Positions 1-15,356 of a stretch of DNA of 64,000 nucleotides are shown here, piece after piece. The notes under the pieces were generated by a model that did no database searches, was not told the DNA's origin, and was given only the letters and a program-made list of their open reading frames with translations. Made by a program: the position numbers and the translations under genes. Numbering within the stretch: position 1 is the stretch's first letter; each line of letters opens with the position of its first letter. Source of the stretch: Campylobacterales bacterium (GTDB lineage Bacteria; Campylobacterota; Campylobacteria; Campylobacterales; Sulfurimonadaceae); NCBI GenBank assembly GCA_026390115.1, contig JAPLGO010000034.1, positions 1-64,000 of the forward strand, written 5' to 3'.

Positions 1-159
1 ACTTTTGTAGGTGATGGCACTAGATTTATATATTTATGGAAAGATCCAAAAGGTAATGTACGCTATAGCTTTAATCTACTTGACTCTAAACCTTATTCTG
101 CCAAGATAGCGAATATAAATAGTGTACTAAATGAGCATTTTCATTTTAAGTTCCGTTGA
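1..159 (+). CDS. C-terminal fragment of an unidentified protein (cut by window edge)
   Basis: An open frame runs in from the left edge and stops at a TGA at 157-159, giving 52 visible residues. It includes a stretch like GTRFIYLWKDPKGNVRY. I do not recognise the family. The last few residues (after about position 148) are read through the broken end of an IS3-type transposase remnant, so the natural C-terminus may have been lost when that element inserted or was rearranged. A coding frame is plausible because it is open from base 1 and has ordinary composition, but 52 residues is weak evidence. It could equally be part of a type I secreted protein whose tail now lies at 471-566. Confidence 0.35.
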   Translation, partial: TFVGDGTRFIYLWKDPKGNVRYSFNLLDSKPYSAKIANINSVLNEHFHFKFR

Positions 160-414
160 GTTTAAGATAGAAGCAGTAAAGCAAGTTACAGTGAATGGTT
201 ATAGCATAAAAGAGACAGCCGAGCGTTTAGGCGTAAATATAGAGTCTTTGAGAAACTGGGTAAAGAAGTTTGAATCTCCAGAAGCAATAGCTAAGAATAA
301 TCAAGCATTATCCTCTCATGAGGAGATAAAATCCAAAAAGAGCTCAAAAGAGTTACAGAGGAGCGCGACATTTTAAAAAAGGCCGCAGCGTACTTTGCAA
401 GCCACCCAAATTAA
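149..414 (+). pseudogene. IS3-type OrfA transposase pseudogene, truncated and frameshifted
   Basis: This is the helix-turn-helix regulator/transposase subunit of an IS3 element. The recognition helix region RLGVNIESLRNWVKKF is intact, but the 5' end is missing (no native start codon; the ATG at 131 belongs to flanking DNA) and the reading frame shifts near position 330 within an A-rich tract. The leucine-zipper-like tail ERDILKKAAAYF follows in the shifted frame. IS3 elements use programmed -1 frameshifting between orfA and orfB, but the break here lies inside orfA, upstream of the orfA/orfB overlap, so I read it as decay. Confidence 0.75.
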
Positions 415-474
415 AGTATGCGTTTATAAAAGAATACAGCGAATATTACACAGTGAGAAGACTGTGTACTTTAG
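149..474 (+). mobile_element. Remnant of an IS3-family insertion sequence (orfA plus start of orfB)
   Basis: From about 149 the frame reads SVEFKIEAVKQVTVNG, the start of an IS3-type OrfA helix-turn-helix protein, and continues through ETAERLGVNIESLRNWVKKF. It breaks near 330 by a small deletion. In the next frame it resumes as KELKRVTEERDILKKAAAYF and stops at 412-414. The overlapping orfB frame starts at about 408 (KLKYAFIKEYSEYYTVRRL) and is lost after about 470. The first residues of OrfA, the catalytic DDE part of OrfB and both terminal inverted repeats are missing. The element is therefore dead. The presence of both orfA and orfB in the usual overlapping arrangement supports IS3 family assignment. 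Confidence 0.85.
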
Positions 475-566
475 CTGCAACATTAGATCAAATTGTTAAA
501 ATTACAGGTACTCATGACTTGTCAACTTCAACAATGAGTGCAGCTGCACTTCTTACAATAGCTTAA
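471..566 (+). pseudogene. Possible C-terminal tail of a disrupted protein
   Basis: After the IS3 orfB similarity ends, the same frame continues for about 31 residues (AATLDQIVKITGTHDLST then a Ser/Ala-rich tail) to a TAA at 564-566. A strong terminator follows 60 bp later, as expected after a real gene end. The small, hydroxyl-rich, aliphatic tail resembles C-termini of some type I secreted surface proteins, but this is a guess from composition. It may be the other half of the gene whose fragment ends near 150. Confidence 0.3.
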
Positions 567-627
567 TTCTTTTCTCTCGTTCCACCTCTCCTGAGGTGAA
601 ATGAATCCAAAAGCCCAAAAAGCTTTC

Positions 628-666
628 AAGCCTCACTTTCTCTTAGGAGTTGGTGAGGCTTTTTTC
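628..666 (+). terminator. Rho-independent terminator
   Basis: Perfect 9-bp inverted repeat AAGCCTCAC (628-636) and GTGAGGCTT (653-661) with a 16-nt loop, followed directly by a T-run on the plus strand. It closes whatever transcript carried the fragment ending at 566. A second small hairpin (CACCTC, 583-588, with GAGGTG, 593-598) lies just upstream and lacks a T-run. Confidence 0.8.
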
Positions 667-890
667 GTTTCTACTCAATTTTTACTCATCCCTCCACCAC
701 ATCCCATAAAACACTTTCATCAATACAAATCATTATCCAAACTCATTTCGTGATTCCTAGCGTCTCTTAGAACTTAACTGAACCTGAAACATAAAAATAA
801 GAAATTTGAAAGGATGGTTAATTAGTTGATACAATAATTTGGAGATTATTTATAAACTTTGTGCGATTGGTTTGTGGATGGTAATGTGGG
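667..890. other. Intergenic, no gene seen
   Basis: This stretch between the terminator at 628-666 and the hairpin at 891-914 is rich in stop codons in all frames. I see no RNA gene, repeat or convincing promoter in it. Confidence 0.5.
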
Positions 891-914
891 AAAGGCGATG
901 TATATGACGCCTTT
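891..914 (-). terminator. Hairpin behind first toxin-antitoxin cassette
   Basis: AAAGGCG (891-897) pairs with CGCCTTT (908-914) around a 10-nt loop. It lies 52 bp beyond the stop codon of the minus-strand RelE-type toxin gene and probably terminates that operon; the symmetric A/T flanks would allow use from either strand. A similar hairpin (1576-1599) follows the second cassette. Confidence 0.45.
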
Positions 915-965
915 TGATATATTTAGTAGTTAGAAATCTGCGATAGATTATTGAAATTTATACGG

Positions 966-1289
966 TTAAATCTGTTTAAGTAATTCGTTGATTCTTAATT
1001 CGCTAATACTATCTAATTCAGATTTTGAATAGATAGTGAGAAGATAAATGTTCTCTTCAGAATCAATATAATAAGTGATTACTCTAAATCCACCGCTCTT
1101 TCCTGTTGGAATAGATGAGTTTGCTAATCGTATTTTATAACAACCGTTGACAATATGAGTCCCACTTTTTGGATTCTCTTTTAACTCAGAAATTAGCTTA
1201 TTTAAATCAATTTTGATGTTACGATATTTTTTATGTAGTCTCTTAATATTATCATTAAATTCATCAATAGCTAAAACATTACAACTCAT
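966..1289 (-). CDS. RelE/HigB-type toxin (type II toxin-antitoxin)
   Basis: A 107-residue basic protein with the motif GKSGGFRVITYY followed by an acidic turn and LLTIYSKSE, typical of the RelE-like family (Pfam RelE, HigB-like) of ribosome-dependent or free mRNA endonucleases. Length matches the family. The gene overlaps the end of the upstream antitoxin frame by 11 bp (start at 1289, antitoxin stop at 1279), the usual translational coupling in such pairs. The Arg of FRV and the Lys-rich N-terminal half fit an RNA-binding toxin. Expected role: growth arrest by mRNA cleavage when the antitoxin is degraded. Whether it is active cannot be seen. Neighbouring cassette 1607-2092 carries an unrelated toxin subtype behind the same promoter block. 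Confidence 0.85.
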   Translation of the reverse strand: MSCNVLAIDEFNDNIKRLHKKYRNIKIDLNKLISELKENPKSGTHIVNGCYKIRLANSSIPTGKSGGFRVITYYIDSEENIYLLTIYSKSELDSISELRINELLKQI

Positions 1290-1500
1290 TCAATAACTCT
1301 TCAATCGGTCTCGCTTTAAGTTTACCTTCTTTGATAAGATTCATCTGTCTCACAGCTTCAGAGAGGCTATTCTCAACTTCTATCGGTGAGAGTGAATCAT
1401 CTTCTCTTATGACTACCCCCTCACTTTTAAAATTATTTAACATTGATAAAATTTTATTTAAGATACTCTCGTTTGGTATGTCAATTGTCACTGTATGCAT
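1279..1500 (-). CDS. Antitoxin of the first RelE-type cassette
   Basis: A small acidic protein (73 residues) starting at the ATG at 1500; an AAGGGG ribosome site lies 6-11 bases upstream. A longer TTG start at 1515 would sit on top of that site, so I reject it. The N-terminal half (TIDIPNESILNKILSMLNNFKSE) closely parallels that of the antitoxin at 1871-2092, whereas the C-terminal half (EAVRQMNLIKEGKLKARPIEELLNEL) differs. In type II antitoxins the N-terminus usually binds the operator and the C-terminus wraps the toxin, so the pattern fits shared regulation with different toxin partners. Transcribed from the TATAAT-containing block at 1501-1580. Confidence 0.8.
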   Translation of the reverse strand: MHTVTIDIPNESILNKILSMLNNFKSEGVVIREDDSLSPIEVENSLSEAVRQMNLIKEGKLKARPIEELLNEL

Positions 1501-1580
1501 CTTCAACCCCTTCAAGGAATTATTTTCTTAAATATCATTATACAGAAATTCAAATAACGAAATGATTATCAGAAGAAAGA
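1501..1580 (-). repeat. 80-bp promoter/leader repeat, copy A
   Basis: This block upstream of the first antitoxin is 78/80 identical to 2093-2172 upstream of the second. The only differences are at the two bases near 1536-1537. On the minus strand it holds a -10 box TATAAT (1542-1537), the AAGGGG ribosome site next to the ATG, and a short near-palindrome TGATAATCA that could be an operator. The identity ends at the start codon, so the block looks like a duplicated regulatory module. Confidence 0.85.
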
Positions 1581-1599
1581 CGACATATAGGTCGCCTTT
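1576..1599 (-). terminator. Hairpin behind second toxin-antitoxin cassette
   Basis: AAAGACGAC (1576-1584) pairs with GTCGCCTTT (1591-1599) with one A-C mismatch and a 6-nt loop. It lies 8 bp beyond the toxin stop at 1607 and partly overlaps the upstream end of repeat copy A. It resembles the hairpin at 891-914 in sequence and position, so both cassettes seem to have the same promoter-antitoxin-toxin-hairpin plan. Confidence 0.45.
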
Positions 1600-1606
1600 A
1601 ATGTAG

Positions 1607-1867
1607 TTAGTATATGTCACCTCTGTTGTCTGCATCCTCCATGTAGATGATTAATTGTTCATCTACAACATCGTACAAAAATTTATAGTCTCCTATTCTG
1701 AGTCTAAAACCTTTTTGATTTATCATCTTCTTAACATCAACTTCATTATTGGATGTATAAGGATTTATCATTAGTTGGTCAAACTTTTTTTTGATTCTCA
1801 ATTTATCTTTTTTGTTGCGACTATTGATAAATTTAATTACTTTTTTATGAGGAATTATTGAATACAC
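1607..1867 (-). CDS. ParE/RelE-type toxin (second cassette)
   Basis: An 86-residue basic protein. The C-terminal half FRLRIGDYKFLYDVVDEQ plus a terminal NRGDIY matches the RelE/ParE superfamily signature (RxGxYRxxYxxxD ... HRxxxY), and the length is typical. It starts 3 bp after the antitoxin stop. By family it either cleaves translated mRNA (RelE) or poisons gyrase (ParE); short proteins with RIGDYRxLY patterns are more often RelE-like, but I cannot decide. It is not closely similar to the toxin at 966-1289, even though the promoter blocks are nearly identical. Confidence 0.85.
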   Translation of the reverse strand: MYSIIPHKKVIKFINSRNKKDKLRIKKKFDQLMINPYTSNNEVDVKKMINQKGFRLRIGDYKFLYDVVDEQLIIYMEDADNRGDIY

Positions 1868-1870
1868 TAA

Positions 1871-2092
1871 TTAATTCCAGTTAATATCATTGAGATGACC
1901 ATAATTTTCTGGATGTGATTTTCTCTCTTCTCTGCCTCTTAAAATATATTTGTAATCTTCATCATCGGGTGTAACAACTTCAATATCTAAAGTATCACTT
2001 CTGTCAACAATTTTAACCTCTGATTTGAAACTATTTAACATATTCATAATCTTATCCAACGCAGATTCTTTAACATCTATGGTTAACAACAT
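1871..2092 (-). CDS. Antitoxin of the second cassette
   Basis: A 73-residue acidic protein starting at the ATG at 2092, directly behind the AAGGGG site of repeat copy B. Its first 30 residues (LLTIDVKESALDKIMNMLNS) parallel the first antitoxin; the tail is acidic then aromatic/Asn-rich (HPENYGHLNDINWN) and unlike the other. This fits duplication of the regulatory half with replacement of the toxin-binding half. It sits 3 bp from the toxin gene in one operon. Confidence 0.78.
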   Translation of the reverse strand: MLLTIDVKESALDKIMNMLNSFKSEVKIVDRSDTLDIEVVTPDDEDYKYILRGREERKSHPENYGHLNDINWN

Positions 2093-2172
2093 CTTCAACC
2101 CCTTCAAGGAATTATTTTCTTAAATATGGTTATACAGAAATTCAAATAACGAAATGATTATCAGAAGAAAGA
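2093..2172 (-). repeat. 80-bp promoter/leader repeat, copy B
   Basis: Second copy of the toxin-antitoxin promoter block (see 1501-1580); 78/80 identical. Its -10 box reads TATAAC on the minus strand instead of TATAAT, so this promoter may be slightly weaker. Confidence 0.85.
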
Positions 2173-2329
2173 TGTCTTTTAAAATACTTTTCATAACATA
2201 AAATAACTTTCCAACAACCTTACAGCTCCCTTAAAATTGAACTTCCGTCATAGGTATTTCGTAGGTGTGCTTTTATTGACTTATTTTCTTCGTCACTCTT
2301 TAATCCTATAAAGCAAAAGAGGTTATCCT

Positions 2330-2503
2330 ATGCCAAAAGTAAAACTCACTCCGACTTTCGTTAAAAAAACACTCTGTAGTGATGATAAATTAAAAGTTGA
2401 TTACTTTGATACTGATACCAGGAAAAAAAGTGTCAGGCACTCTTTTAAGCAACTCAGTTTATTAACCAACACCTTAATCTTTCTAAAATTTTTTTACGTG
2501 TAA
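2330..2503 (+). pseudogene. N-terminal stub of a tyrosine integrase
   Basis: A start ATG behind an AAGAGG site opens a 57-codon frame beginning MPKVKLTPTFVKKTLC and including KVDYFDTDTR, the usual beginning of phage/island integrases with the DUF4102 arm-binding domain. After about residue 31 the similarity stops abruptly at a small inverted repeat (AGTG/CACT around 2431-2442) and the frame closes at TAA 2501-2503. No core-binding or catalytic domain follows, so the gene is truncated. It suggests that 1-2.5 kb is the wreck of an older island. Confidence 0.65.
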
Positions 2504-2505
2504 AT

Positions 2506-2517
2506 ATGTTATAACAT
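2506..2517 (+). promoter_or_regulatory. Palindrome at the likely promoter of the DUF4214 gene
   Basis: ATGTTATAACAT is a perfect 12-bp palindrome that includes a TATAAC -10-like hexamer, 37 bp before the start codon at 2554. It could be a -10 box within an operator; no known regulator is assigned. Confidence 0.35.
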
Positions 2518-2553
2518 TATGTATTCGAATCAATAATAAAATAAGGATTTACC

Positions 2554-4345
2554 ATGTCATTCTTTAACGATGTTACGAAACTTTATGTGGCTACTTTCAA
2601 TCGGGCTCCAGATGCGGCGGGATTGAATTATTGGGTTTATGACTCTGGGCTTTCGATAGAAGGGATTGCTGCGAGCTTTTTTGATCAACCAGAAACGCAG
2701 CAACTCTATCCGGTAGGTACTGCGAATGAGAATTTTATAAATTCCGTATATGATAATCTTTTTAACAGAGCTGCTGAGCAGGAAGGCTTAGATTACTGGG
2801 TAGCAGAGCTTAACAGTGGCAACATTTCTAAACAAAAATTTATCTTAGCGGTAATCAATGGAGCTCAGAACACTGCTCTGGGGCAAGATGCCACTATTTT
2901 GACAAATAAACAAACGGTAGGATTGAGCTATGTCCTTCATGGGCTCGATGATGTAGCTCTGGCTAGCTCCGTTATGTCTGTTGTTGATGCATCAGATGCA
3001 TCAGTAGAAAGCGCAGTAACATCAATCAACCAAACAGCGCCACTCAGTGAAATGAATGTGGTAACAGCAAATATTGAGGGAACTTCTCTGCGAGGAGATA
3101 TATATGATATGTCTGCTGACGGTCGCTACATAGTTTTCAGTGGATTCTCCGATGAATATTTTACACAAAGCGCTGAGTATAGTTACTACGGAGGACTGTT
3201 TCGTAAAGATATGTTTACAGGAGAAATTGAAGTCGTATCTACGGATGCTACAGGTACTGCAGCGAACGGCAATGCGCTTTATGCCAATATGAGCGATGAT
3301 GGGCGTTATATTGTATTTCAAGGAAATACTAATAATCTTGTCGAAAGTGACACAAATAATTCAATTGATATTTTTCTCAAAGACATGGATACTGGAGTGC
3401 TGCAAATCATTTCACGCAGCAGTGTTGGGGTGCAGGGAAATAACGATAGCAATGCAGTTTCTATTTCAGGAGATGGTCATTATGCAGTCTTTATGAGTGA
3501 TGCGAACAATCTTGTGGATGGAGATACAAATGGTGTTGCCGATACTTTTATCAAAGATTTGCATACTGGTGATATTGCTCGTATTTCACTTGGTGAAACA
3601 GGTGCACAAGGCAATGCTACAAGTTATGGCGGAGTATCAAGCACAGATGGACGATATGTTGCTTTTGTGAGCATCTAACCTAGTTGCAGGGGATACTAAT
3701 GGTGTGACGGATATCTTTTTATGGGATAGACAAACAGGAGGTATCACGATTGTTTCAACAACTTCAGTAGGCGCGTTAGCCACAGGCGGAAGCTCCGGTG
3801 CTAGCTCAGTTTCTATCTCAGGTGATGGACGCTATGTTGCTTTCATAGATGATGCTACCAATCTTACTACTGGTCTTAGCGGCACAGAGAATCGCTCAAT
3901 GGCGATAGATGATGTTTTTGTAAAGGATACTCAAACTGGTATATTGAAGGTAGTTTCTACAACTGCACAGGGTGCTTTGACAACTTATGGCGGTTACGAT
4001 CCTTCGATATCTGGTGATGGGACATATGTAACTTTTTCAAGCAGTTCTGCATATGTTACAGGAGATACAAATTTTTATAGAGATATTTATGTCAAGAACG
4101 TCTTAACTGGAGCTATTGAAGAGGTTTCAGTTAGTTCCACAGGGCAACAAGGTAATGGAGAGTGTAATACACCGATTATTAGTAGTGATGGAAATTATAT
4201 AGCCTTTAATAGTTGGTCTACAAATTTCGCCCAAAATGATACAAATGGATATTCGGATGGCTTTAGAGTCGGCAATCCACTTAGCAGTACACATCTTTCA
4301 ATCATAGGTGTTGCTGAATTGGCTGATGGGTCAATAATAGTGTAA
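2554..4345 (+). pseudogene. DUF4214 / beta-propeller surface protein, split by a frameshift
   Basis: The first frame (2554-3678) starts with a good ribosome site (AAGGA). It has two DUF4214-type repeats (LYVATFNRAPDAAGLNYWV near residue 10; VYDNLFNRAAEQEGLDYWV near 70), a domain found in type I secreted and S-layer-like proteins. Then come TolB/WD40-like propeller repeats, each with SxDGRYVxFxS, NLVxGDTNGVxDxFxKD and TGxxxxVS. The frame breaks at about 3669: codons for AFVS run into a premature ATC TAA. The next repeat (ASNLVAGDTNGVTDIFL) continues in another frame from 3671, as if about 5 bases were lost. The second part runs to a TAA at 4343-4345 (GIVAELADG-like hydrophobic end). No homopolymer is present at the break, so slippage is unlikely. 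It is either a pseudogene or a sequence error. Probably the intended cargo of the type I exporter at 6497-10879. Confidence 0.75.
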
Positions 4346-4375
4346 ATTTGAATTTTGAGAAATTTTTGAACAAGG

Positions 4376-4452
4376 TGGTGCCGACACGAGGATTCGAACC
4401 CCGGGCCTGCTGATTACAAATCAGCTGCTCTAGCCAACTGAGCTATGTCGGC
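4376..4452 (-). tRNA. tRNA-Thr (anticodon TGT)
   Basis: The minus strand folds as a full cloverleaf. The acceptor arm is GCCGACA (4452-4446) with TGTCGGC (4386-4380), followed by discriminator A and an encoded CCA. The D-arm contains AGCTCAGTTGGCTAGAGC. The anticodon stem-loop is CTGATTTGTAATCAG with anticodon TGT, and the T-arm contains GGGTTCGAATCC. It sits alone between the frameshifted DUF4214 gene and a plus-strand hypothetical gene. I looked for a duplicated 3' end that would mark an integration site on the left and saw none. Confidence 0.97.
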
Positions 4453-4517
4453 AAATAGTGGAGCAGAATTTTATCTAATTAAACTTCAGTAAAACTTATC
4501 TGTGTACAATTGCGCCC

Positions 4518-4970
4518 ATGAAAAGAAACATTATTGCAAACACTTTCACCCCCTCCTACGATGAACTAGAAGACAGACTGCGGCTCGTCATTAATTATCA
4601 AGACATGCAAAACAGAGTTGAATTTATGATAACAAGAAGTTTTGTGCTTAATTTAATTCCTACGGCAGAAGAGTTTATAGAGAGGAATTACATGCATGTT
4701 GAACCTCAGATAATCCAGCAAGCAGAAAACAAAAATCAAGCAATCTCAAAAACAGATAACGTAAATTTAGAACTGCTGCGAACAAATGAAGAGCTATTAA
4801 CAGAGGTCACCTTCTCTTTTGATATAAATACAAAGTTAACTATAGTAACATTTAACTCCAAAAACAGTGCGGCACAGGCTAATTTAGATGCTGTTTTGTT
4901 GTCGCAGATATTCCAAATAATAAAATCGTCTATTCCATACATTAAGTGGGGAATATCAAGCCACTTTTAA
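4518..4970 (+). CDS. Hypothetical protein, 150 residues
   Basis: I do not recognise this protein. It begins MKRNIIANTFTPSYDELEDRL and has a polar, Asn/Glu-rich middle (residues about 70-100) and a mixed beta-like C-terminal half (LTIVTFNSKNSAAQANLDAV) ending in IKWGISSHF. No signal peptide or membrane segment is visible. It lies between tRNA-Thr and the Sap-type secretion genes, same strand, 112 bp before the next start, so it may belong to that locus. Codon use is like the surrounding core genes. The pattern VxFxIT..F..NLIPTAEEFIERN suggests a small regulatory or assembly protein, but no function can be assigned. Confidence 0.7.
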   Translation: MKRNIIANTFTPSYDELEDRLRLVINYQDMQNRVEFMITRSFVLNLIPTAEEFIERNYMHVEPQIIQQAENKNQAISKTDNVNLELLRTNEELLTEVTFSFDINTKLTIVTFNSKNSAAQANLDAVLLSQIFQIIKSSIPYIKWGISSHF

Positions 4971-5082
4971 TATGTGACTATGGCACCAATTAAAAAAATA
5001 TAAACTAGTGTCGTAGTGATTTAATCTTCTTTAAAGCTAAAAAAATATATAGTACGACTTGAATCTAAAAAAGGAAATATAT

Positions 5083-6471
5083 TTGGCACGAAAGCTGAGA
5101 ATTTTTGTTGAGAACACACCGCAGCATGTTATGCTCAAAAGCATAAATGAGATGGATGTTTTTATAGATAGCAGTGATTATGAAGAGTTTTTAAATATTG
5201 TTTCTGAAACTAGTCAAAGACATGGTTTAAAAATACACTCTTATATAGTCACGAAAAACTATTTTGAATTCTTGGCTACTCCGTCAGATGTTGAGTCGCT
5301 GCCTAAATTGATGCAAAGTTTAGGCAGGAGATATGTAGGTTATTTCAATAAGAAATATAGTCGCACCGGTACAATATGGGAAGGCAGATATAAAACATCT
5401 ATAGTGGAATCGGAGCTTTACCTTTTTGATGTAATGGCTTACATCGAAAAAAAGTCAAACGATTTGAACTACAGATACAGCAGCCTCTCTAAAAATTTGT
5501 ACGATAACACTGATAAATTAGTTACGTATCATGAACTGTATAAAAAATTGGGATTTACTCAAGAAGATAGAATAAGTCTCTACTCTAAAATCTTTTTTGC
5601 AAAAACAGAGGAAGAGAAAAATTTTTTTATACAAAGTTGTCTTGAAAAACAGACCATAACAAGCAGTGCTAAGTTTATTCGAAATTTAGAACTCTTAATC
5701 GGAATGACCCTTAGTGCAAAAAAGATAGGTCGTCCAAAAATTGAAAACACACAACAAAGGAAAAAAATGTACACAAATCTACAAGTATTAGACAAAGAGA
5801 AACACAAAGAGTTTAAGATTAATCCACTTGAAAACCTCAATTTTGCAAAGCAGACAGCTTTTTTACCGGTTGTAGCAAATGAAGCAGCACTTATCGCTGC
5901 AACTTTTCCGGTAGTTTTTACATCAGAAGAAAATGCATCACTCGTTGCATTAGTCTCTCTTGGCGGTGACAGTTTAGCAATAAACAGTGAGGGCAAATGG
6001 ATAACAAGTTATATTCCTAGTTTTTTAAGAAAATACCCTTTTTCAATGGCTAGCACAAAAGAAAATGCAGACCAGAAAGTGATTCTTATAGATGAAGATT
6101 CACATCTTTTCTCAAAGTCAAAAGGGAAACAGCTCTTTAAAAAAGATGGTGAAAAATCTGAGACTTTAGAACATGCAATCAATTTTTTAACATCCCATGA
6201 ACAACAGAGCATAGTTACTAAAAACATAGTAAATGAAATTGTTCAAAGCGGCATTTTAGATGATAGAGAGATTAGTGTTGGCGAAGGTGAAGAAAAAAAA
6301 GTTTTAGTAAACGGATTTAAAGTTGTTGACAGAGAAAAACTAAACAAGCTCAGCGATGATATTTTGGCTTCTTGGGTAAGAAGAGGAATCATTACTTTTA
6401 TAGATGCACATTTGAAGTCGCTTGAAAATATACAGACACTCTTCAACTTAGCAAACCAAAGACAAAGCTAA
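5083..6471 (+). CDS. Y1 (RAYT-type) transposase-like domain fused to a SapC domain
   Basis: I place the start at TTG 5083 (MARKLRIFVENTP, the usual RAYT opening) behind AAGGAAA; an upstream in-frame TTG at 5059 lies before that site. Residues 1-125 follow the Y1/IS200-like REP-associated transposase fold: QHVMLK, RHGLKIHSYIVTKNYFEFLATP, LMQSLGRRYVGYFNKKYSRTGT, WEGRYKTSIVE. The metal-binding HxH (normally NHVHLL) is replaced by NYFEFL at about 59-64, so cleavage activity should be lost, while the Tyr-bearing RRYVGYF helix remains. Residues about 240-455 match the SapC family (FLPVVANEAALIAATFPVVF, GDSLAINSEGKWITSYIP, FLRKYPFSMAS), which accompanies S-layer/type I secretion genes in Campylobacter fetus and Caulobacter-like loci. 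It lies 25 bp before the exporter ATPase. I infer a DNA- or RNA-binding regulator or assembly factor of the secretion locus. SapC biochemistry is unknown. Confidence 0.8.
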   Translation: MARKLRIFVENTPQHVMLKSINEMDVFIDSSDYEEFLNIVSETSQRHGLKIHSYIVTKNYFEFLATPSDVESLPKLMQSLGRRYVGYFNKKYSRTGTIWEGRYKTSIVESELYLFDVMAYIEKKSNDLNYRYSSLSKNLYDNTDKLVTYHELYKKLGFTQEDRISLYSKIFFAKTEEEKNFFIQSCLEKQTITSSAKFIRNLELLIGMTLSAKKIGRPKIENTQQRKKMYTNLQVLDKEKHKEFKINPLENLNFAKQTAFLPVVANEAALIAATFPVVFTSEENASLVALVSLGGDSLAINSEGKWITSYIPSFLRKYPFSMASTKENADQKVILIDEDSHLFSKSKGKQLFKKDGEKSETLEHAINFLTSHEQQSIVTKNIVNEIVQSGILDDREISVGEGEEKKVLVNGFKVVDREKLNKLSDDILASWVRRGIITFIDAHLKSLENIQTLFNLANQRQS

Positions 6472-6496
6472 AATAAAATAATACTTAAGGACTTCC

Positions 6497-8263
6497 ATGG
6501 CACAAGTACAAAAAAATCAAAAGAGTAAAGTTAGCGAACTCAAAAGTGCGATAATGCAATCTAAGAAATCATTTATTATAGTCGGTTTCTTCAGTTTGTT
6601 TATTAACCTGCTAATGCTGGTTCCATCCTTGTATATGTTACAGCTTTACGATAGAGTAATGACAAGCAGAAGTATAGAGACTCTTGTAATGCTTACTCTC
6701 ATTGTTCTTATTCTCTTCATTACAATGGCTACTTTAGAGATTGTCAGATCTAAAATACTTGTATTGGTAGGAAATAAATTAGATAATCTTTTAAGTAAAA
6801 GAGTTTTTGACTCACTCTTTGATTTAGCAAACGCACAGCCGGGAAAGGCATCTTCTATGCCTCTCAATGATTTAACTCAAATAAGACAATTTATGACAGG
6901 TAACGGTCTCTTTGCTTTTTTTGATGCGCCATGGATGCCGATATATATAGCAGTTCTTTTTATGTTTCATCCTTGGTTCGGGTATTTTGCGATTTTTGCA
7001 GGCATCGTTTTACTCATTCTTACCATTCTTAATGAGTATGACACAAAAGAAAAACTGCTGGAAGCTAATGTAATGAGCAGAGCCTCTACGATGTATGTTG
7101 ATTCAAACCTAAGAAATGCAGAAGTTGTAAATGCAATGGGTATGAAAGAAAGGATTCAACATATCTGGAGAGATAAATATTATGCTTTTTTAAATGCACA
7201 AACAGATGCAAGTAATAAAGCAGGTGTCTGGTCAAATGTTTCAAAAAGCTTAAGAATGCTTTTTCAATCACTCATGTTAGGACTTGGAGGATATCTTGCA
7301 ATAAAATCCGAGGTAAGCCCCGGTATGATGATAGCAGGCTCAATAATCATGGGTAGGGCATTGGCTCCTCTTGATCTGATGATTGGCAGCTGGAAAGGTT
7401 TTAGCAGTGCAAGAACATCATATGAAAGATTAGAGGGACTGCTAGAGAATTTTCCAAAAGATAAAGAGCACATGCAACTTCCTGCTCCTCAGGGTGAAAT
7501 ACTTCTTGAAGGGGTAGTTGTAATCCCTCCGAATGCACAACAGCCATCCATCAGAGGTATCTCTATGAAAATAGATAAAGGGGATGTTGTAGGTATAGTA
7601 GGACCAAGTGCTGCAGGAAAATCCTCTTTGGCCAGAATTATTCTGGGACTATGGCCATTATCTGCCGGTAAAGCAAGATTGGACAAAGCAGATATTTACC
7701 AGTGGGATAAAGTTGACTTAGGAAAGTATATAGGCTACTTGCCTCAGGATATAGAACTCTTTGAAGGAACTATCAGTCAAAATATATCTAGATTTGCCGA
7801 AGTAGATTCAGCAAAAGTTGTAGAAGCTGCAACAAAAGCCGGCGTACATGAGATGATATTGAGATTACCAAATGGATATGATACAAAAATAGGAGCAGGC
7901 GGAGAATCGCTATCAGGCGGACAGAGACAGCGAGTAGGTTTTGCGCGTGCTATCTATAATAATCCTGTTTTAGTTGTTCTTGATGAACCAAACTCAAATC
8001 TTGATGACCAAGGCGAAGCAGCTCTTGTTGAAGCTATAAAAGCACTCAAAGAGAGTAAAACAACAGTTATAATAATTACACACCGACCGAATATATTACA
8101 GGTTACAAACAAGTTAGCCGTAATAAAACAAGGGTTGTTAGAGTTGTACGGCGATACAAATGAAGTTTTGGCAAGATTGGCCGCTGCAGCTCCTCAGTCT
8201 CAAAAGCCGGCAGCAAACCCACAGCCAATGCAAACAATATCGCTCAGTAAACCAAGTAGTTAG
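6497..8263 (+). CDS. Type I secretion ABC exporter (PrtD/SapD family)
   Basis: A 588-residue half-size exporter. After a charged N-terminus there are membrane segments at about residues 25-48, 52-75 and further pairs near 135-175 and 250-290. The nucleotide-binding domain has Walker A GPSAAGKSSLAR at about 369, signature LSGGQRQR at about 471, Walker B VVLDEPNSNLD at about 492 and the H-loop THRPN at about 528. The exact GPSAAGKSS form and the length are typical of PrtD/AprD/SapD exporters that have no N-terminal C39-peptidase-like domain. It would move a C-terminally signalled protein such as the DUF4214 product directly to the outside with the next two genes. 25 bp after the SapC-fusion gene, 8 bp before the adaptor gene; one operon. 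Confidence 0.93.
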   Translation: MAQVQKNQKSKVSELKSAIMQSKKSFIIVGFFSLFINLLMLVPSLYMLQLYDRVMTSRSIETLVMLTLIVLILFITMATLEIVRSKILVLVGNKLDNLLSKRVFDSLFDLANAQPGKASSMPLNDLTQIRQFMTGNGLFAFFDAPWMPIYIAVLFMFHPWFGYFAIFAGIVLLILTILNEYDTKEKLLEANVMSRASTMYVDSNLRNAEVVNAMGMKERIQHIWRDKYYAFLNAQTDASNKAGVWSNVSKSLRMLFQSLMLGLGGYLAIKSEVSPGMMIAGSIIMGRALAPLDLMIGSWKGFSSARTSYERLEGLLENFPKDKEHMQLPAPQGEILLEGVVVIPPNAQQPSIRGISMKIDKGDVVGIVGPSAAGKSSLARIILGLWPLSAGKARLDKADIYQWDKVDLGKYIGYLPQDIELFEGTISQNISRFAEVDSAKVVEAATKAGVHEMILRLPNGYDTKIGAGGESLSGGQRQRVGFARAIYNNPVLVVLDEPNSNLDDQGEAALVEAIKALKESKTTVIIITHRPNILQVTNKLAVIKQGLLELYGDTNEVLARLAAAAPQSQKPAANPQPMQTISLSKPSS

Positions 8264-8271
8264 GAAAGATT

Positions 8272-9567
8272 ATGGATAATAAACAGATAAAAGTGCCATT
8301 AAGTGATGATACTTCAGTAATTAGATTTGGATTAGCGGTTATATTTGTAGTCTTTGTGCTGATGGGCGGCTGGATAACTTTTGCTCCGCTTGCAACCTCT
8401 TCGGTCGCTCCGGGAAAAGTTTCGGCAGATTTAGAAAAAAAAACCATTCAACATTTGGAGGGCGGAGTTATTGAAGCTATCTATGTGAAAGATGGAGACA
8501 GGGTGAAAAAAGATCAGGTTTTGATGAAGCTAAGCGATGTGCAGGTAAAAGCACAGCTCAATATTTTAAATGCACAATATCAAGATGTTATCGCTCAATT
8601 GGCAAGACTTAAAGCGCAGAGAGACGGTTTGAAGCAGATAGAGTTTCCAAAAGAGTTGACAGATGCAGATGCGATAAAAAATCAGACCAATATATTTATT
8701 TCAACAAATAAGTCTATTGATGATGAGGCTGAAATTGCAAAGAAGAAAGTTCTGCAACTACAAAGCCAGATTGAAGGAACAAGTTCACTGATTACGAGCA
8801 AGCAAAACAGATTGGTATCTATTGCAGAGGAGATTTCAGAGTGGGAAGATTTATATAAACAGAGGCTTGTTGATAAACAAAAAATCAGAGATCTGCAGCG
8901 AGACAGCAATACAATAGATGGAGATTTGGCGAATGCAAAATCTGAAATAGCGAGGTTAAATGAGCAGATAAATCAAGTCAGTACAGAAAAACTGCTTAAA
9001 GAAAAACAGTTCAAAAACGAGACTTTGCAAAAATTTGTAGAAGCAGAGACGCGTGAGTCTGACTTGAAATCAAAAATAATTGCGAATGAAGATATTATTA
9101 AAAGAACAACAATAACTTCTCCAATTGATGGTACGGTCGTGGGACTTAGCATGCATACTGTCGGCGGTGTAGTAAGCCCAAGTAAGCCAATTCTTGAAAT
9201 TATTCCTGAAGATGCAAAGCTTATTGTTGTTGCTCAGGTAAAAACAACAGATGTTGATAAAGTGGTGGTTGGACTAAAAGCAGAGATTAAATTTTCAGCT
9301 TTCAATCTAAAGCATGTCCTTGCTACTGATGGAAAAGTTGTTCATGTGTCAGCAGATATTTTTACAGATGAGACAACACATACTCCTTATTATGAAGCTA
9401 AAATAGAGGTTACAAAAGAGGGCAAGAAAATACTGGAAAAGAATAATTTTGTCCTAGTTTCAGGCATGCCGGCAGAAGTTATGATTAATATAGGAGATAG
9501 AACGGCACTTGATTATTTTATAAAACCTTTCCGAGAGATGCTAGGCAGGAGCTTAAATGAAGAGTAA
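8272..9567 (+). CDS. HlyD-family membrane fusion protein of the type I system
   Basis: A 431-residue periplasmic adaptor. It has one N-terminal membrane anchor at about residues 18-40 (LAVIFVVFVLMGGWITFAPL), the half-lipoyl motif GGVIEAIYVKDGDRVKKDQVL at about 62, and a long coiled-coil region (about 100-270). It has a second lipoyl half TSPIDGTVVGLSMHTVGGVV near 285 and a C-terminal beta barrel ending in YFIKPFREMLGRSLNEE, all typical of PrtE/HlyD. It bridges the exporter at 6497-8263 and the TolC-type channel. The start overlaps nothing upstream (8 bp gap), and the last 11 bp overlap the next gene. Confidence 0.93.
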   Translation: MDNKQIKVPLSDDTSVIRFGLAVIFVVFVLMGGWITFAPLATSSVAPGKVSADLEKKTIQHLEGGVIEAIYVKDGDRVKKDQVLMKLSDVQVKAQLNILNAQYQDVIAQLARLKAQRDGLKQIEFPKELTDADAIKNQTNIFISTNKSIDDEAEIAKKKVLQLQSQIEGTSSLITSKQNRLVSIAEEISEWEDLYKQRLVDKQKIRDLQRDSNTIDGDLANAKSEIARLNEQINQVSTEKLLKEKQFKNETLQKFVEAETRESDLKSKIIANEDIIKRTTITSPIDGTVVGLSMHTVGGVVSPSKPILEIIPEDAKLIVVAQVKTTDVDKVVVGLKAEIKFSAFNLKHVLATDGKVVHVSADIFTDETTHTPYYEAKIEVTKEGKKILEKNNFVLVSGMPAEVMINIGDRTALDYFIKPFREMLGRSLNEE

Positions 9568-10879
9568 TATTATGGCAAGATTTATATTGTTACTCACATT
9601 TGCTGTGGCTTATGCAAATGCGGCAGAAGTTCTTCTTTTTTCAAAAGTGTATGAACTCGCCCTTTTAAATACAAACTCAATTAAATCTTCAGCCTATAAA
9701 GCTGAAGCTGAGAAAGAAAAACTGAATCAGGAGTACTCTAAACTCTATCCTCAAATAAGTTTTTCAGCGAACTACGGAAAAACAGATTATCAGTATAATC
9801 CAAACTATGCCAGAATTGACCATGTGAGACAAGGTATGATTAGTAATACCCTGTCTCTGAGACAGTCGATATATAATGCAGATACATTCTCCAGGATAGA
9901 CATGGAGACATCAAGAGGCAGATTGTATGAGCTTGATTCAGATTTAAAAAAAGAGCAGTTGGCTCAAGATGTATTTAAGGCATATCTTGAGTTGCTTAAA
10001 TCACATAACAAAATAAAACTTCATGAATCAAATGTACAATTTACGAAGTCAAAACTTGATACATTGACGCAACGCTATGACATGAATTTGGCGAACAAGA
10101 TGGATCTGCTTCAGTTGCAGGTTGAGTATAGCACCGCTTTGATAAACCTAGATAAAGAAAAAAAGTCACTCAAAGTAAATGAACTGAAATTGACGCAGTT
10201 TATTGGTGATGTAGAGTATACATTACCGACTCTAGAAGTAAATAAACAAACATTAGAGAATATCAAAGCCATGAAAGATACAATTGTCATTAATGATAAT
10301 TTTGAAAAAAATCTAAAAGTACTTCAGGCACAAGTATCATTACAGTTATCAAAAGAGCAGATTACAAACGCATCGGATGCACATCTTCCTCGTTTAGACC
10401 TGCAGGCATCTGTTTCTAAATATAACACAGATGATCCAACAGTCGATGCCCCTTACAATAATGTGCAGCAAGTGGGAATTGTTCTTAATATTCCAATCTA
10501 TAGCGGTGGAATGGTTTCATCAATGGTTGCTTCATCGGAACTTCTAAGTAAATCTGCAGCTGAAGATTTGATAGATACTAAGAAACAGGTTCAAGTACAA
10601 TATAATGAATATCTGGTATCTTTTAACTCTTCTGCAGAGTCGGTATCGATGTATAAAAATGCAGTTGAATCAGCCGAACTTTATGTTAAATCTGTAGAAC
10701 AGGGCTATGAGCATGGCTTAAAAAGCATTATAGATTTAAACGAAGCAAACACTAAACTCTATGATGTGAAGTACAAATATCTTGATAATATACATGGAAT
10801 GGTTGACTCCTATATAGGGTTGCTCATTGTAAGTAACAATTTTGAGAATATAGGTTTATTAGATAAAATAGTTGAATAA
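9557..10879 (+). CDS. TolC-family outer membrane channel of the type I system
   Basis: A 440-residue protein with a signal peptide (ARFILLLTFAVAYANAAE, cleavage after about residue 23) and two homologous TolC-type coiled-coil halves (about 30-220 and 240-435). Signature-like stretches are LYPQISFSANYGKT, RYDMNLANKMDLLQLQ and ATIYSGG-like NIPIYSGGMVSSMV. The start at 9557 has AGGAG 8 bases upstream; a second ATG five codons on is possible. It completes the three-part type I machine with the two genes before it. The O-antigen-type genes start 57 bp downstream on the same strand. Confidence 0.92.
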   Translation: MKSNIMARFILLLTFAVAYANAAEVLLFSKVYELALLNTNSIKSSAYKAEAEKEKLNQEYSKLYPQISFSANYGKTDYQYNPNYARIDHVRQGMISNTLSLRQSIYNADTFSRIDMETSRGRLYELDSDLKKEQLAQDVFKAYLELLKSHNKIKLHESNVQFTKSKLDTLTQRYDMNLANKMDLLQLQVEYSTALINLDKEKKSLKVNELKLTQFIGDVEYTLPTLEVNKQTLENIKAMKDTIVINDNFEKNLKVLQAQVSLQLSKEQITNASDAHLPRLDLQASVSKYNTDDPTVDAPYNNVQQVGIVLNIPIYSGGMVSSMVASSELLSKSAAEDLIDTKKQVQVQYNEYLVSFNSSAESVSMYKNAVESAELYVKSVEQGYEHGLKSIIDLNEANTKLYDVKYKYLDNIHGMVDSYIGLLIVSNNFENIGLLDKIVE

Positions 10880-10936
10880 TTTAGAATCGGCTAAAAGCAG
10901 GTAAAGAAGAAATAAAATTTAATAGAGAGGGATTGA

Positions 10937-11980
10937 ATGTCAAATCTTAAAAAAGCAATAATTACCGGTATAACGGGGCAAGACGGAGCCTATCTCGCGG
11001 AGTTACTTTTAGAAAAAGGGTATAAGGTTTATGGAACCTACAGAAGAACATCCTCGGTAAACTTTTGGAGAATAGAAGAGTTAGGGATACAGAATCATGA
11101 AAATCTTCATTTAGTAGAGTATGATTTAACAGACCAAGCCAATAGTGTTCACATGGTTAAAAATATAGAGCCGGATGAGATTTATAACCTTGCAGCTCAG
11201 AGTTTTGTAGGCGTGTCATTTGAACAACCGCTCGCAACTGCTCATATTACGGGGCTTGGATGTGTTCATTTGCTTGAAGCGATTCGAATCGTAAATCCGA
11301 AGATAAAGTTTTATCAAGCAAGCACTTCAGAGATGTTCGGTGAGGTTCAAGAAATTCCGCAAAAAGAGAGTACTCCTTTTTACCCGCGAAGTCCTTACGG
11401 TGTGGCAAAACTCTATGCACATTGGATGGTAATAAATTATCGAGAGTCTTACAATATTTTTGGATGCAGCGGCATACTCTTCAATCATGAATCGCCTTTG
11501 CGAGGAAGAGAGTTTGTAACAAGAAAAATCACAGACAGCGTGGCAAAAATTAAGCTCGGCAAATTAGAGTGTTTAGAGCTTGGAAACATGGATGCAAAAA
11601 GAGATTGGGGATTTGCAAAAGATTATGTGGAAGGCATGTATTTAATGCTTCAGGCTTCTAAACCAGACACTTATGTACTGGCTACAAATAGAACAGAAAC
11701 CGTAAGAGATTTTGTGACTATGGCATTTAAAGCTGTTGGAATAGAGTTGGAATTTAGCGGCAGTGATGAAAATGAGATAGCAAAAGACAAAGCAACAGGC
11801 AAAACGGTTGTGAAAGTAAATCCAAAATTTTATAGACCATGTGAAGTTGAATTGCTCATAGGCAATCCGCAAAAAGCAAAAGATATCTTAGGCTGGGAAC
11901 CGAAATGCACACTTGAAGAGCTGTGTGGCATGATGGTGAAGGCAGACCTCAAAAGAAATGAGATAGGTTTCAGTTTTTAA
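10937..11980 (+). CDS. gmd: GDP-mannose 4,6-dehydratase
   Basis: A 347-residue extended SDR enzyme that converts GDP-D-mannose to GDP-4-keto-6-deoxy-D-mannose. The NADP-binding [20 protein letters not shown], the YGTYRRTSS stretch, the catalytic triad region (SEMFGEVQ Thr/Ser-Glu; [15 protein letters not shown] for Tyr-Lys) and the GMD-specific [16 protein letters not shown] are all present. Length fits. It opens the polysaccharide operon behind an AGAGAGGGA site, and the next gene (3 bp on) supplies a matching reductase. No JUMPstart/ops element is visible upstream. Confidence 0.95.
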
Positions 11981-11983
11981 GGT

Positions 11984-12862
11984 ATGAAAAAAGTTTTAAT
12001 AACCGGCATTGACAGCTTTACGGGAACGCATCTCTCTTCTTATCTTCAAGAGTGCGGTTATGAGGTGTTCGGAACCTCTTTTTTCGAGGGCGCAGATAAA
12101 AAATATAAGTGCGACATAACAGAAAAATTCGACATTGCAAATGTTCTAAAAGAGGTGCAACCCGATTTTGTGATACACCTCTCAGGCATCTCCTTTGCAG
12201 CGCATGGAGATAATGAAGCATTCTATAAAGTAAATACAATTGGTACTACAAATATTTTAGAAACTCTTGTAGAACTCGGGCTAAATCCATCCAAAATTAT
12301 TTTAGCAAGCAGTGCTACCATCTATGGAAATCAGGGTTTGGAGGTGCTGGATGAGTCACTCTGTCCAAAGCCTGCAAATCATTACGGAGCGAGCAAATAT
12401 GCCATGGAGTGTTTGGCTCAGGGCTATTTTGACAAGCTCAATATTCTAATCACGAGACCCTTTAACTATACGGGTAGCGGTCAGGCTGAACACTTTTTGA
12501 TACCGAAGATTGTTAAACATTTTAAGGAAAAAAGCCAAATCATAGAGCTTGGCAACCTTGATGTCGAGAGAGAGTTTAATGATATAAGTTTTGTGTGTGA
12601 AGTGTATAAAAGATTGTTAGAGTGCGATAAAAAGAGTGAACTCTTAAATATCGCAACAAACAGAGGAATAAAACTTCTCGATGTCATAGAAAACATGAAT
12701 GAGATTGCAGGGTATCAAATAAAAGTAGTCGTTAATCCTGACTTTGTGAGAAAAGATGAAATCAAAAGTTTGACAGGCTCGAGCGATAAGCTTTTTGATT
12801 CTATAGGTATAATTGAGTTAAAAGATTTTAAGCATACACTCAGAGAGATGTTTGAAGCCTAA
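11984..12862 (+). CDS. rmd: GDP-4-keto-6-deoxy-D-mannose reductase (GDP-rhamnose forming)
   Basis: A 292-residue SDR with LITGIDSFTGTHLSSYLQ as the nucleotide-binding loop, SSATIYG for the Ser and HYGASKYAMECLAQ for the catalytic Tyr-Lys pair, and RPFNYTGSGQAEHFLIPKIV, typical of the Rmd family that gives GDP-D-rhamnose. Adjacent to gmd, so the pair most likely makes GDP-D-rhamnose. Related reductases make GDP-6-deoxytalose; sequence alone does not fully exclude that. Its last 11 bp overlap the following glycosyltransferase start. Confidence 0.82.
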   Translation: MKKVLITGIDSFTGTHLSSYLQECGYEVFGTSFFEGADKKYKCDITEKFDIANVLKEVQPDFVIHLSGISFAAHGDNEAFYKVNTIGTTNILETLVELGLNPSKIILASSATIYGNQGLEVLDESLCPKPANHYGASKYAMECLAQGYFDKLNILITRPFNYTGSGQAEHFLIPKIVKHFKEKSQIIELGNLDVEREFNDISFVCEVYKRLLECDKKSELLNIATNRGIKLLDVIENMNEIAGYQIKVVVNPDFVRKDEIKSLTGSSDKLFDSIGIIELKDFKHTLREMFEA

Positions 12863-13964
12863 AATTGCACTTGTACATGACTGGCTGGTTACAGATGCCG
12901 GGGCGGAAAAGGTATTAAGAGCAATTATAGATATCTATCCGGATGCCGACATTTTTTCACTTGTTGACTTTTTGAGTGATGACGAAAGAGCGGTTGTTTT
13001 AAACGGCAAATATGCCAAAACCTCCTTTGTCCAAAATCTTCCTTTTGCCAAAAAACATTTCAGAAACTACCTTCCCCTTTTTCCCCTTGCCATAGAGGGT
13101 TTAGATGTTAGCGCGTATGATTTAGTCATAAGTTCATCATGGGCTGTTGCAAAGGGTGTGAAAACAACTAAAAATCAACTCCATATCTCCTACTGCCACA
13201 CACCGATACGCTATGCATGGGATTTGTATGATGAATATACTGCAAATCTCAAACAACCAAAAAAGTTCTTAGTAGAGCAGACGCTCAAATATATCAGAAA
13301 GTGGGACATGCAGAGTTTGGAGCGAGTGGATTATTTTATAGCAAATTCAAAATTCGTAGCAAATAGAATACAAAATAGCTATAACAGAGAGAGCAGTGTA
13401 ATCTACCCACCGGTTGAGACACAAAAATTTACTTTATGGGAAGAAAAAGAGGAATACTATCTTACAGCCTCAAGACTTGTTCCCTATAAAAAAACAAAAC
13501 TTATAGTAGAAGCTTTTAATGAGATGCCAACTAAAAAACTCTATATAATCGGGAGCGGCGAGGAGTTCGAAACAATAAAAAAAATTGCAAAAGAGAATGT
13601 GCTCATACTTGGCTATCAGGAAAAAAAAACAATGATAGAATACATGCAAAAAGCAAAAGGCTTTGTTTACGCTGCAATAGAGGATTTCGGAATTGTTCCG
13701 ATAGAAGCTCTTGCATGTGGAACTCCAGTTCTCGCTCTGAATGACGGCGGAACTCATGAGACTATAGAAGACGGCATAAACGGTGTTCATTTTGAACATC
13801 AGACAAAAGAGAACATAATGGATGCAGTAGAGAGATTTGAGACTTTGCAGTTCAATTATAAACAAATTTCAAAGTCGGCAGACTCCTACAATGAAGAGAG
13901 ATTTAAAAGTGAAGTTAGAGGGTTTATAGAAGAAAAATTAATAACAAATCTTAATAGATTTTAG
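12852..13964 (+). CDS. GT4-family glycosyltransferase (mannosyl/rhamnosyl type)
   Basis: A 370-residue GT-B enzyme read from TTG 12852, which has a GAGAGAT site upstream inside the end of rmd. The N-terminal ALVHDWLVTDAGAEKVLRAI and ISYCHTPIRYAWDLYDEY match the WbaZ-like family of mannosyl/rhamnosyltransferases. The C-terminal half has the nucleotide-sugar site ASRLVPYKKTKLIVEAF and EDFGIVPIEALACGTPVLAL (E-x7-E). Given the preceding gmd-rmd pair, GDP-rhamnose or GDP-mannose is the likely donor. Cytoplasmic face of the inner membrane. Confidence 0.88.
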   Translation: MKPKIALVHDWLVTDAGAEKVLRAIIDIYPDADIFSLVDFLSDDERAVVLNGKYAKTSFVQNLPFAKKHFRNYLPLFPLAIEGLDVSAYDLVISSSWAVAKGVKTTKNQLHISYCHTPIRYAWDLYDEYTANLKQPKKFLVEQTLKYIRKWDMQSLERVDYFIANSKFVANRIQNSYNRESSVIYPPVETQKFTLWEEKEEYYLTASRLVPYKKTKLIVEAFNEMPTKKLYIIGSGEEFETIKKIAKENVLILGYQEKKTMIEYMQKAKGFVYAAIEDFGIVPIEALACGTPVLALNDGGTHETIEDGINGVHFEHQTKENIMDAVERFETLQFNYKQISKSADSYNEERFKSEVRGFIEEKLITNLNRF

Positions 13965-13976
13965 TACAATAACTTT

Positions 13977-15311: not shown

Positions 15312-15356
15312 AGGCGGATTAGAAGTACAAAATAATATAATGTTGCGAGGTATCAA

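Follow-up and report, generated by a model that had tools for sequence, protein, structure and literature searches.

The first gene of a type I secretion operon in the window (the whole 64,000-nucleotide stretch of DNA analysed) encodes a RAYT-derived Y1 transposase domain joined to SapC, and the view of this fused Y1 domain as a domesticated RAYT without catalysis, carried in a secretion protein, is strongly supported. The protein, Y1-SapC, most likely recognises a hairpin upstream of its own gene and controls its own operon; domain and hairpin would have been domesticated together, probably with an autoregulatory function. The fusion itself, the loss of catalytic residues, the selection on the Y1 part, the linkage of site and gene, and the promoter-like position of the site were all obtained by computation.

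Table 1. Positions of the fusion gene, its upstream elements and the adjoining operon genes in the window
Feature	Position	Strand	Remarks
u150, conserved 150-aa protein upstream of the fusion	4518..4970	+	present at 21/37 complete-fusion loci
REP-like imperfect hairpin, proposed operator	4969..5025	+	5' arm GACTATGGCACC at 4976-4987, 3' arm TAGTGTCGTAGT
Putative -10 element TATAGT	5048..5053	+	29 nt before the start codon, about 30 nt past the hairpin 3' arm
RAYT-derived Y1 domain	5083..5454	+	residues 1-124; HxH changed to YFE, Tyr kept; Pfam, Foldseek, omega
Linker matching the RAYT C-terminal part	5455..5766	+	GRPK motif at residues 216-219
SapC domain	5767..6471	+	begins at M229, where standalone SapC begins; PF07277, 4e-59
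SapD-like type I secretion permease/ATPase, PrtD type	6497..8263	+	TIGR01842, 768 bits
SapE-like HlyD-family adaptor	8272..9567	+	TIGR01843, 343.9 bits
SapF-like TolC-family outer membrane protein	9557..10879	+	OEP, 1.4e-50

A Y1-SapC fusion heading an exporter operon

A single forward frame at 5083-6471 encodes 462 residues, in which Pfam recognised Y1_Tnp (RAYT; residues 11-123; E value, 1.5e-8; 35.2 bits against a cut-off of 23) and SapC (PF07277; residues 236-453; E value, 4e-59; 200.3 bits against a cut-off of 28.9), bearing out the 462-residue fusion claimed in the original prediction. Against the NCBIfam equivalog NF047646 (RAYT), the protein scored 18.9 bits, below the cut-off of 80. 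Judging from the LARK start common to most aligned relatives, the TTG at 5083 is most likely the start codon; the frame stays open upstream as far as a TTG at 5059. M229 was invariant in the aligned fusions, and the standalone SapC of locus L090 begins with MYKN. The linker gave a weak hhalign match to the C-termini of solo RAYTs (44.6%), and plasmid proteins annotated as "transposase" matched residues 1-219 of the query. GRP was present in the linker of 37/37 fusions, compared with 2/24 solo RAYTs and 0/8 Campylobacter-type SapCs. We take the GRPK of the linker to be AT-hook-like; one weak AT-hook match was obtained from Pfam, in L098 (E value, 0.37).

The predicted structure of the window protein had a mean pLDDT of 51, with most blocks of residues 11-150 at 59-89. 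Of the two folds whose prediction had been proposed as a check, the Y1 fold was recovered, with 4er8, a REP-associated transposase with bound REP hairpin, as the top PDB match in Foldseek (E value, 1.5e-4); the SapC half was modelled poorly, in blocks of pLDDT 24-57. A PDB sequence search with the window protein returned weak IS200-type matches only (best E value, 0.013).

Of 200 genomes from the window's family, 20 held a full-length fusion and two more held one cut by a contig end. Among named Campylobacterota genomes, many of which overlap the 200-genome family set, the fusion occurred at 14 loci (three cut), and SapC searches across the phylum and its families located fusions in three further families (f4, f7, and f10). 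The search for such fusions in Campylobacterota that had been suggested thus yielded 37 complete non-identical fusions. The non-identical set also comprised eight Campylobacter-type long SapCs (family f3), 24 standalone RAYTs, and 27 SapCs without a Y1 match; five of the 27 are fusions truncated by a stop codon or by the end of a contig, leaving 22 Y1-less genes, and these 22 and 20 of the 24 solo RAYTs were chosen by hand from longer lists. The conservation across families indicates an old gene and not a local frameshift. Two separate genes in relatives, with a frameshift in the window, had been named as the finding that would count against the fusion, and the 20 family genomes carry it end to end; chance or a frameshift artefact as its origin is ruled out by these full-length relatives. 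One of the 20 (G164; L013 10001-11383) has an in-frame TAG at codon 109, within the Y1 part. The SapC half downstream of this TAG keeps its own open frame. No relative of the window protein was present among 141 pattern matches in viral_contigs, PHROGs held no family for it, and among 72,556 plasmid records 67 matched, none covering more than 80% of the query, so that no fusion was seen there.

The gene order at 5083-10879 is sapC-D-E-F, with the fusion first, and the products encoded at 6497-10879 (a PrtD-type ABC permease/ATPase, an HlyD adaptor, and a TolC-type protein) agree with the adjoining Sap-type type I exporter described earlier. The sapD gene lay directly downstream of 44/44 testable Y1-SapC genes (36/36 complete fusions and 8/8 Campylobacter-type genes; L119 was too short to be counted) and was also next in 5/5 genes cut by a stop or contig end, which were tallied apart (L013, L015, L016, L017, and L100). 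Of these, the visible part is SapC alone in L017 and includes the linker in L015 and L016, whereas the Y1 half of L100 was found on another contig; L103 lacks its first residues, as its record starts inside the gene. By comparison, sapD was next in 0/22 sampled Y1-less sapC genes, with exporter genes elsewhere nearby in three (L090, L136, and L124). The Y1 part is therefore a feature of exporter operons that begin with sapC and not of SapC as a whole. The upstream protein u150, which matched no Pfam family above cut-off, also adjoins standalone SapC in L088 and L089, and is thus linked with SapC itself.

Several arrangements near these operons were observed in passing. In L090 and L136, a Y1-less SapC follows sapF (order D-E-F-C), a second way of combining SapC with an exporter, and the hairpin covariance model found no match in either locus. 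L124 (8182-10387) carries a Y1-less SapC and a Y1-SapC in tandem ahead of the exporter genes. Upstream of the fusion in the window, a DUF4214/PD40 protein (2554-4345), which may be a secreted substrate, is split between two frames near 3678-3704, a possible pseudogene or sequence error. An Rfam tRNA match on the reverse strand (4400-4452), cut by the end of the searched stretch, adjoins u150.

Catalytic residues, selection and the N-terminus of Campylobacter SapC

The HxH metal site was intact in 24/24 sampled solo RAYTs, as against 3/37 fusions and 0/8 Campylobacter-type SapCs. The change to NYFEFL noted in the original prediction was seen in the window protein at the place where standalone RAYTs show NH[YF]H. 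The three fusions that keep HxH (L014, L097, and L118) all belong to family f10; in the other 34, the first His was replaced by Tyr in 25 and the second by Glu in 32, usually giving YxE. The catalytic Tyr was present in the window protein, in 24/24 solo RAYTs, in 29/34 HxH-lost fusions, and in 3/8 Campylobacter-type SapCs; where HxH is lost, no activity is expected of this Tyr. A further metal ligand of RAYTs is the Asn of Y---NP (N119), as given in the excerpted text of a survey of Y1 transposases (PMC6006769). This Asn was found in 24/24 solo RAYTs and in two of the three HxH-intact fusions (L097 and L118), and it is absent from the window protein. Asn is not among the six commonest residues of the column across the 34 HxH-lost fusions, residues that account for 32 rows; in 6/8 Campylobacter-type rows the column holds N, where the alignment is loose. 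With HxH and Asn lost in most descendants, the Y1 domain would be unable to cut by the known mechanism. The basic motifs were retained in the HxH-lost fusions (NKKY in 34/34 and the Arg of GRYK in 34/34). In the Campylobacter-type proteins the basic motif is largely lost, leaving an N in 8/8, a K in 6/8, and the Arg of GRYK in 8/8.

The Y1 part is under purifying selection. Over seven close pairs, omega was 0.03-0.12 in the Y1 part, with synonymous change saturated there in one of the pairs, 0.04-0.12 in SapC, and 0.08-0.26 in the linker. A Y1 tree built on 113 columns separated the 24 solo rows from the 45 fused and Campylobacter-type rows with support of 100/97. The branch leading to the Campylobacter-type rows was very long, and the placement of the HxH-intact rows inside the fusions had weak support, which fits one or several losses of HxH. 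The SapC tree contained 64 rows (34 of 41 fusion rows, 8 Campylobacter-type, and 22 Y1-less); seven fusion rows were dropped, their SapC match having been split by HMMER and so falling below the 180-residue limit, as were L017 and four exact duplicates. Here, the 34 fusion rows stood on one side of a branch (97/93) and joined the Campylobacter clade at 93/85, in a set that also includes four Y1-less SapCs: L093, L134, and L135 of the Campylobacter family, and the tandem copy of L124. The original proposal that a secretion protein had taken in a RAYT as a domesticated, non-catalytic part is therefore strongly supported by the lost HxH, the omega of 0.03-0.12, the Y1 tree, and the sapD linkage.

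To our knowledge, no role has been assigned to SapC in Campylobacter S-layer export. The eight Campylobacter-type SapCs (352-395 residues, one cut by the record end) carry an N-terminal extension. A Pfam scan of four of them gave Y1_Tnp with an E value of 0.17 in one and no Y1_Tnp match in three. When searched in the ORF set with a model built from the Y1 part of the fusions, all eight matched (E values, 1e-4 to 4e-8), and the profile of the extension aligned with the standalone-RAYT profile over 114 columns in hhalign (97.1% probability; E value, 7.6e-11), compared with E values of 0.04-0.8 for 12 column-shuffled profiles and 0.28-0.7 for three unrelated profiles. By these profile comparisons, the N-terminus of Campylobacter-type SapC is recognisable as an eroded RAYT domain. 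In L104, sapCDEF lies between 745-nt inverted repeats (2341-3085 and 9242-9986) that are 99% identical and 6156 nt apart, an arrangement that presumably resembles the invertible sap element known in C. fetus. Plasmid p16187MP2 of Campylobacter sp. RM16187 (loci L103, L163, and L164) carries an exporter operon of the sap type, in which the Y1-derived SapC spans the record start.

The upstream hairpin and the putative promoter

Comparison of the upstream regions revealed an inverted repeat ahead of nearly every fusion, just upstream of its likely promoter. In the alignment of 37 loci, the 16-pair structure gave a covariation of 0.276 against 0.174 ± 0.015 after shuffling, 80.2% paired cells against 73.2 ± 1.1, and 47 double-change cells against 26.1 ± 3.8, values each reached by 0 of 500 shuffles; the structure was drawn by hand, the segments were chosen by likeness to the arms, which favours pairing, and the shuffles ignore relatedness. 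When the pairing partners were slid, covariation was at most 0.111. The number of pairs with double changes and the number of further pair types were not above the shuffles (222/500 and 85/500), and RNAalifold returned no structure for the 37-locus alignment. A blind palindrome finder scored far above shuffles at some loci only (best at L014, L078, L097, L118, L119, and L123), and in the window it missed the hairpin, with its best match elsewhere upstream (z, -0.1). Two G-U wobbles, U19-G53 (18/37) and G21-U51 (23/37), occur on the mRNA-sense strand only, which favours the sense strand as the folded one.

With a covariance model, the hairpin was the only strong place in the window (64.7 bits, matched on both strands as expected of an inverted repeat; the one other match had an E value of 1.2), and in a search of its own genome with stricter filters at E 0.1, none of the matches listed lay outside the window hairpin. 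Strong matches (E < 1e-4) occurred in 17 of 100 genus genomes, all upstream of fusions; G765 is new among these, G758 and G768 are contigs of L008 and L004, and the others are known fusion genomes. A second match in G093 precedes a broken fusion copy at a contig end, and of two weak genus matches, the one in G168 fell on REP repeats of the solo type and the one in G103 within a frame. Of 397 phylum genomes, 12 matched at E 0.01, and these are exactly the 12 with a non-Campylobacter fusion; the phylum searches for SapC and hairpin shared one draw of genomes by genome labels, and the genus and phylum hairpin searches used stricter filters. In G541, the fusion is cut by a contig end, and the hairpin match on another contig precedes fusion residues 1-157. 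Matches outside the model-building set are those in G075, G164, G765, and G541 and the second copy in G093, the others matching by construction. Campylobacter-type genomes gave no match to the covariance model at E 0.01. A weak match was found in L106 (E value, 0.088 over 493 kb), 24 nt before the sapC frame, and the best score in the upstream region of L102 was 10.1 bits, with no hairpin.

Repeats upstream of some solo RAYTs resemble the hairpin, namely GGGTGTCAGGCAC in L005, L007, and L013 and GGGGTCAGGCACC in L097. The standalone RAYT of L097 (11494-12354) is intact, has two GGGGTCAGGCAC repeats upstream, and lies close to the HxH-intact fusion, whose own palindrome shares GGGTCAG. Other identities for the hairpin were also considered. 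As a terminator of the upstream gene it was rejected, since a scan found no terminator-like site there and the upstream genes vary by locus, and as a known RNA family it was rejected, since Rfam yielded only the tRNA at 4400-4452.

The putative -10 element, assigned by a six-base score in AT-rich DNA, stands at a steady distance from the start codon. The best TATAAT match lay exactly 29 nt before the start in 16/37 fusions (at most 4 in 300 shuffles) and 27-31 nt before it in 24/37 (at most 10 in 300 shuffles). A general promoter consensus scan did not list the TATAGT at 5048-5053. Given this putative -10, the hairpin would sit just upstream of the -35 region. In Campylobacter-type regions, the 29-nt spacing of TATAAT was found in 2/7, the others having it at 38-42. 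The binding target, placed near the DUF4214 gene in the original prediction, would more exactly be the likely promoter of the fusion itself.

One arm of the hairpin extends to Campylobacter. The half-site ACTNTGRCAC was found exactly, within about 260 nt upstream, in 27/38 fusions, 7/8 Campylobacter-type sapC genes, and 0/22 Y1-less sapC genes; it was picked after viewing the first two groups, the Y1-less group being unused in the choice, and L015, L016, L017, and L100 were excluded, as these genes start off the contig. Allowing one mismatch added seven fusions and two of the 22 Y1-less genes (L090 and L136). The sequence ACTYTGGCACTTTTT occurred in 6/162 loci, all six upstream of Campylobacter-type sapC; the other two Campylobacter-type genes have ACTYTGGCACTTTTT with one mismatch, which in L104 lies 242 nt from the start and is weak evidence. 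Campylobacter-type genes keep one arm, so no hairpin would be needed there.

Proposed control of the operon and related systems

The simplest account of the retained motifs, the lost catalysis, the linkage, the site, and the promoter is recognition without cutting, with the site as an operator. In an ancestor of these Campylobacterota, a complete RAYT gene may have been joined end to end with the sapC heading sapCDEF, after which most descendants would have lost the metal-binding HxH and Asn. Outside Campylobacter, the Y1 fold and basic motifs would have been kept, and the operon would have kept its REP-like hairpin by the likely promoter. Y1-SapC could bind that single site either as a hairpin, extruded or formed by a single strand, or as an inverted repeat in duplex form, and the bound protein would control transcription of its own operon, the SapC half perhaps coupling this control to the state of the exporter or substrate. 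In Campylobacter, domain and site would have eroded further, to a largely lost basic motif and one half-site. We infer the binding, the direction of control, and the role of the SapC half from these sequence patterns. The nucleic-acid binding originally claimed for the Y1 part thus gains indirect support, from the kept basic motifs and the one-to-one occurrence of the hairpin, and is itself a probable property. Held more tentatively, it is quite possible that transposase and recognition hairpin were co-domesticated as protein and operator of a feedback switch that ties exporter expression to secretion. The same module would then be the hidden first third of Campylobacter SapC, which would make SapC a regulator and not a part of the channel.

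The hairpin could instead work as RNA, lying in the 5' leader of read-through transcripts where the Y1 part would bind it and control translation or stability of sapCDEF. The wobbles on the mRNA-sense strand and the position of the hairpin directly after the u150 stop, in the window and at several other loci, are consistent with this. However, single-strand DNA would give the same wobbles, the upstream genes vary between loci, and the -10-like element at a steady distance between hairpin and start would leave the hairpin outside the main transcript; an RNA site is therefore considered unlikely. Less probable still is that the hairpin and the Y1 part were carried over from the transposase gene as relics, the Y1 part serving SapC in a structural or protein-binding capacity only. 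REP-type repeats also stand just upstream of some solo RAYT genes, so the site could simply be inherited, and the Campylobacter-type domains are heavily eroded yet kept. Against such relics stand the compensating changes in the arms, the strict co-occurrence of site and gene over four families, the half-site kept while its surroundings changed, and the invariant basic motifs.

Continued enzymatic activity, as a REP nuclease or transposase directed at its own flank, is very improbable for the fused domain. HxH and Tyr are both present in L014, L097, and L118, with Asn as well in L097 and L118; all three fusions have strong palindromes and could still cut. In 34/37 fusions, the window included, both His are missing. 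The arm pattern occurred solely at the hairpin in G389 and G562, G561 having two further one-mismatch matches, and the reversed control pattern gave 0, 1, and 3 matches in these genomes, so that no spread of REPs was seen. The least probable of the readings considered is that the protein controls S-layer gene switching through DNA inversion or recombination. The repeats around the L104 operon would fit such switching, but no inverted repeats of at least 60 nt were found in the 16-kb stretches of L101 and L102, and the longest among 25 pairs listed for window positions 1-16000 had imperfect 31-nt arms. With no long inverted repeats flanking the window operon among these pairs and the catalytic residues gone, the S-layer gene switching suggested earlier, taken as DNA rearrangement, is unsupported.

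Compared with RAYT/TnpA-REP proteins (PF01797), the window protein has a homologous Y1 domain and fold, and a palindromic repeat likewise marks the upstream gene flank, with a GTCAG core common to several loci. It differs in the HxH lost across most fusions, in going with one site per genome where RAYTs have dispersed REPs, and in being joined to SapC within a secretion operon. RAYT genes are described, in partial texts, as lying between a pair of inverted REPs, which occur scattered through the genome (PMC2817692; for further background, PMC8266576), whereas the window fusion has one upstream hairpin and no other own-genome match listed at E 0.1, its downstream flank being covered by a general repeat finder. 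In the excerpted survey of Y1 transposase subclasses, SapC goes unmentioned and proteins longer than expected were left aside (PMC6006769). No paper joining SapC, transposase, and IS200 was found among the open-access papers searched, of which a few name SapC; subscription papers lie mostly outside this set, so the connection may already be published.

TldRs are RNA-guided, nuclease-dead repressors derived from TnpB, according to an excerpt (PMC13418256). Y1-SapC resembles them, as far as that text goes, as the remnant of an IS200/IS605-type protein that is dead as a nuclease and associated with a gene for a surface structure; the difference is that it derives from a TnpA-like protein and stands beside its own hairpin, whereas TldR comes from TnpB and uses a guide RNA (PMC13418256). 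Its control of the neighbouring gene is suggested by the position and conservation of the site. If the proposed control is correct, Y1-SapC would be a TnpA counterpart of the nuclease-dead TnpB regulators and would give Campylobacter SapC a testable role. It would also display rarely visible stages, from an HxH-intact fusion with a near-perfect palindrome, through HxH loss with a covarying hairpin, to an eroded domain with a half-site.

The S-layer operon of Campylobacter shares with these loci the C-D-E-F order and, in Campylobacter-type SapC, the Y1-derived N-terminus; Sulfurimonas and relatives differ in keeping the Y1 part well, with a full hairpin site (background on the C. fetus sap locus in partial texts: PMC3887049; PMC4943207). 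After sapF, the window contains GDP-mannose dehydratase-, epimerase-, and glycosyltransferase-like genes (10937-13964), as do many fusion loci. These recall the glycosylation genes that adjoin the C. fetus sap locus in the excerpted description (PMC4943207).
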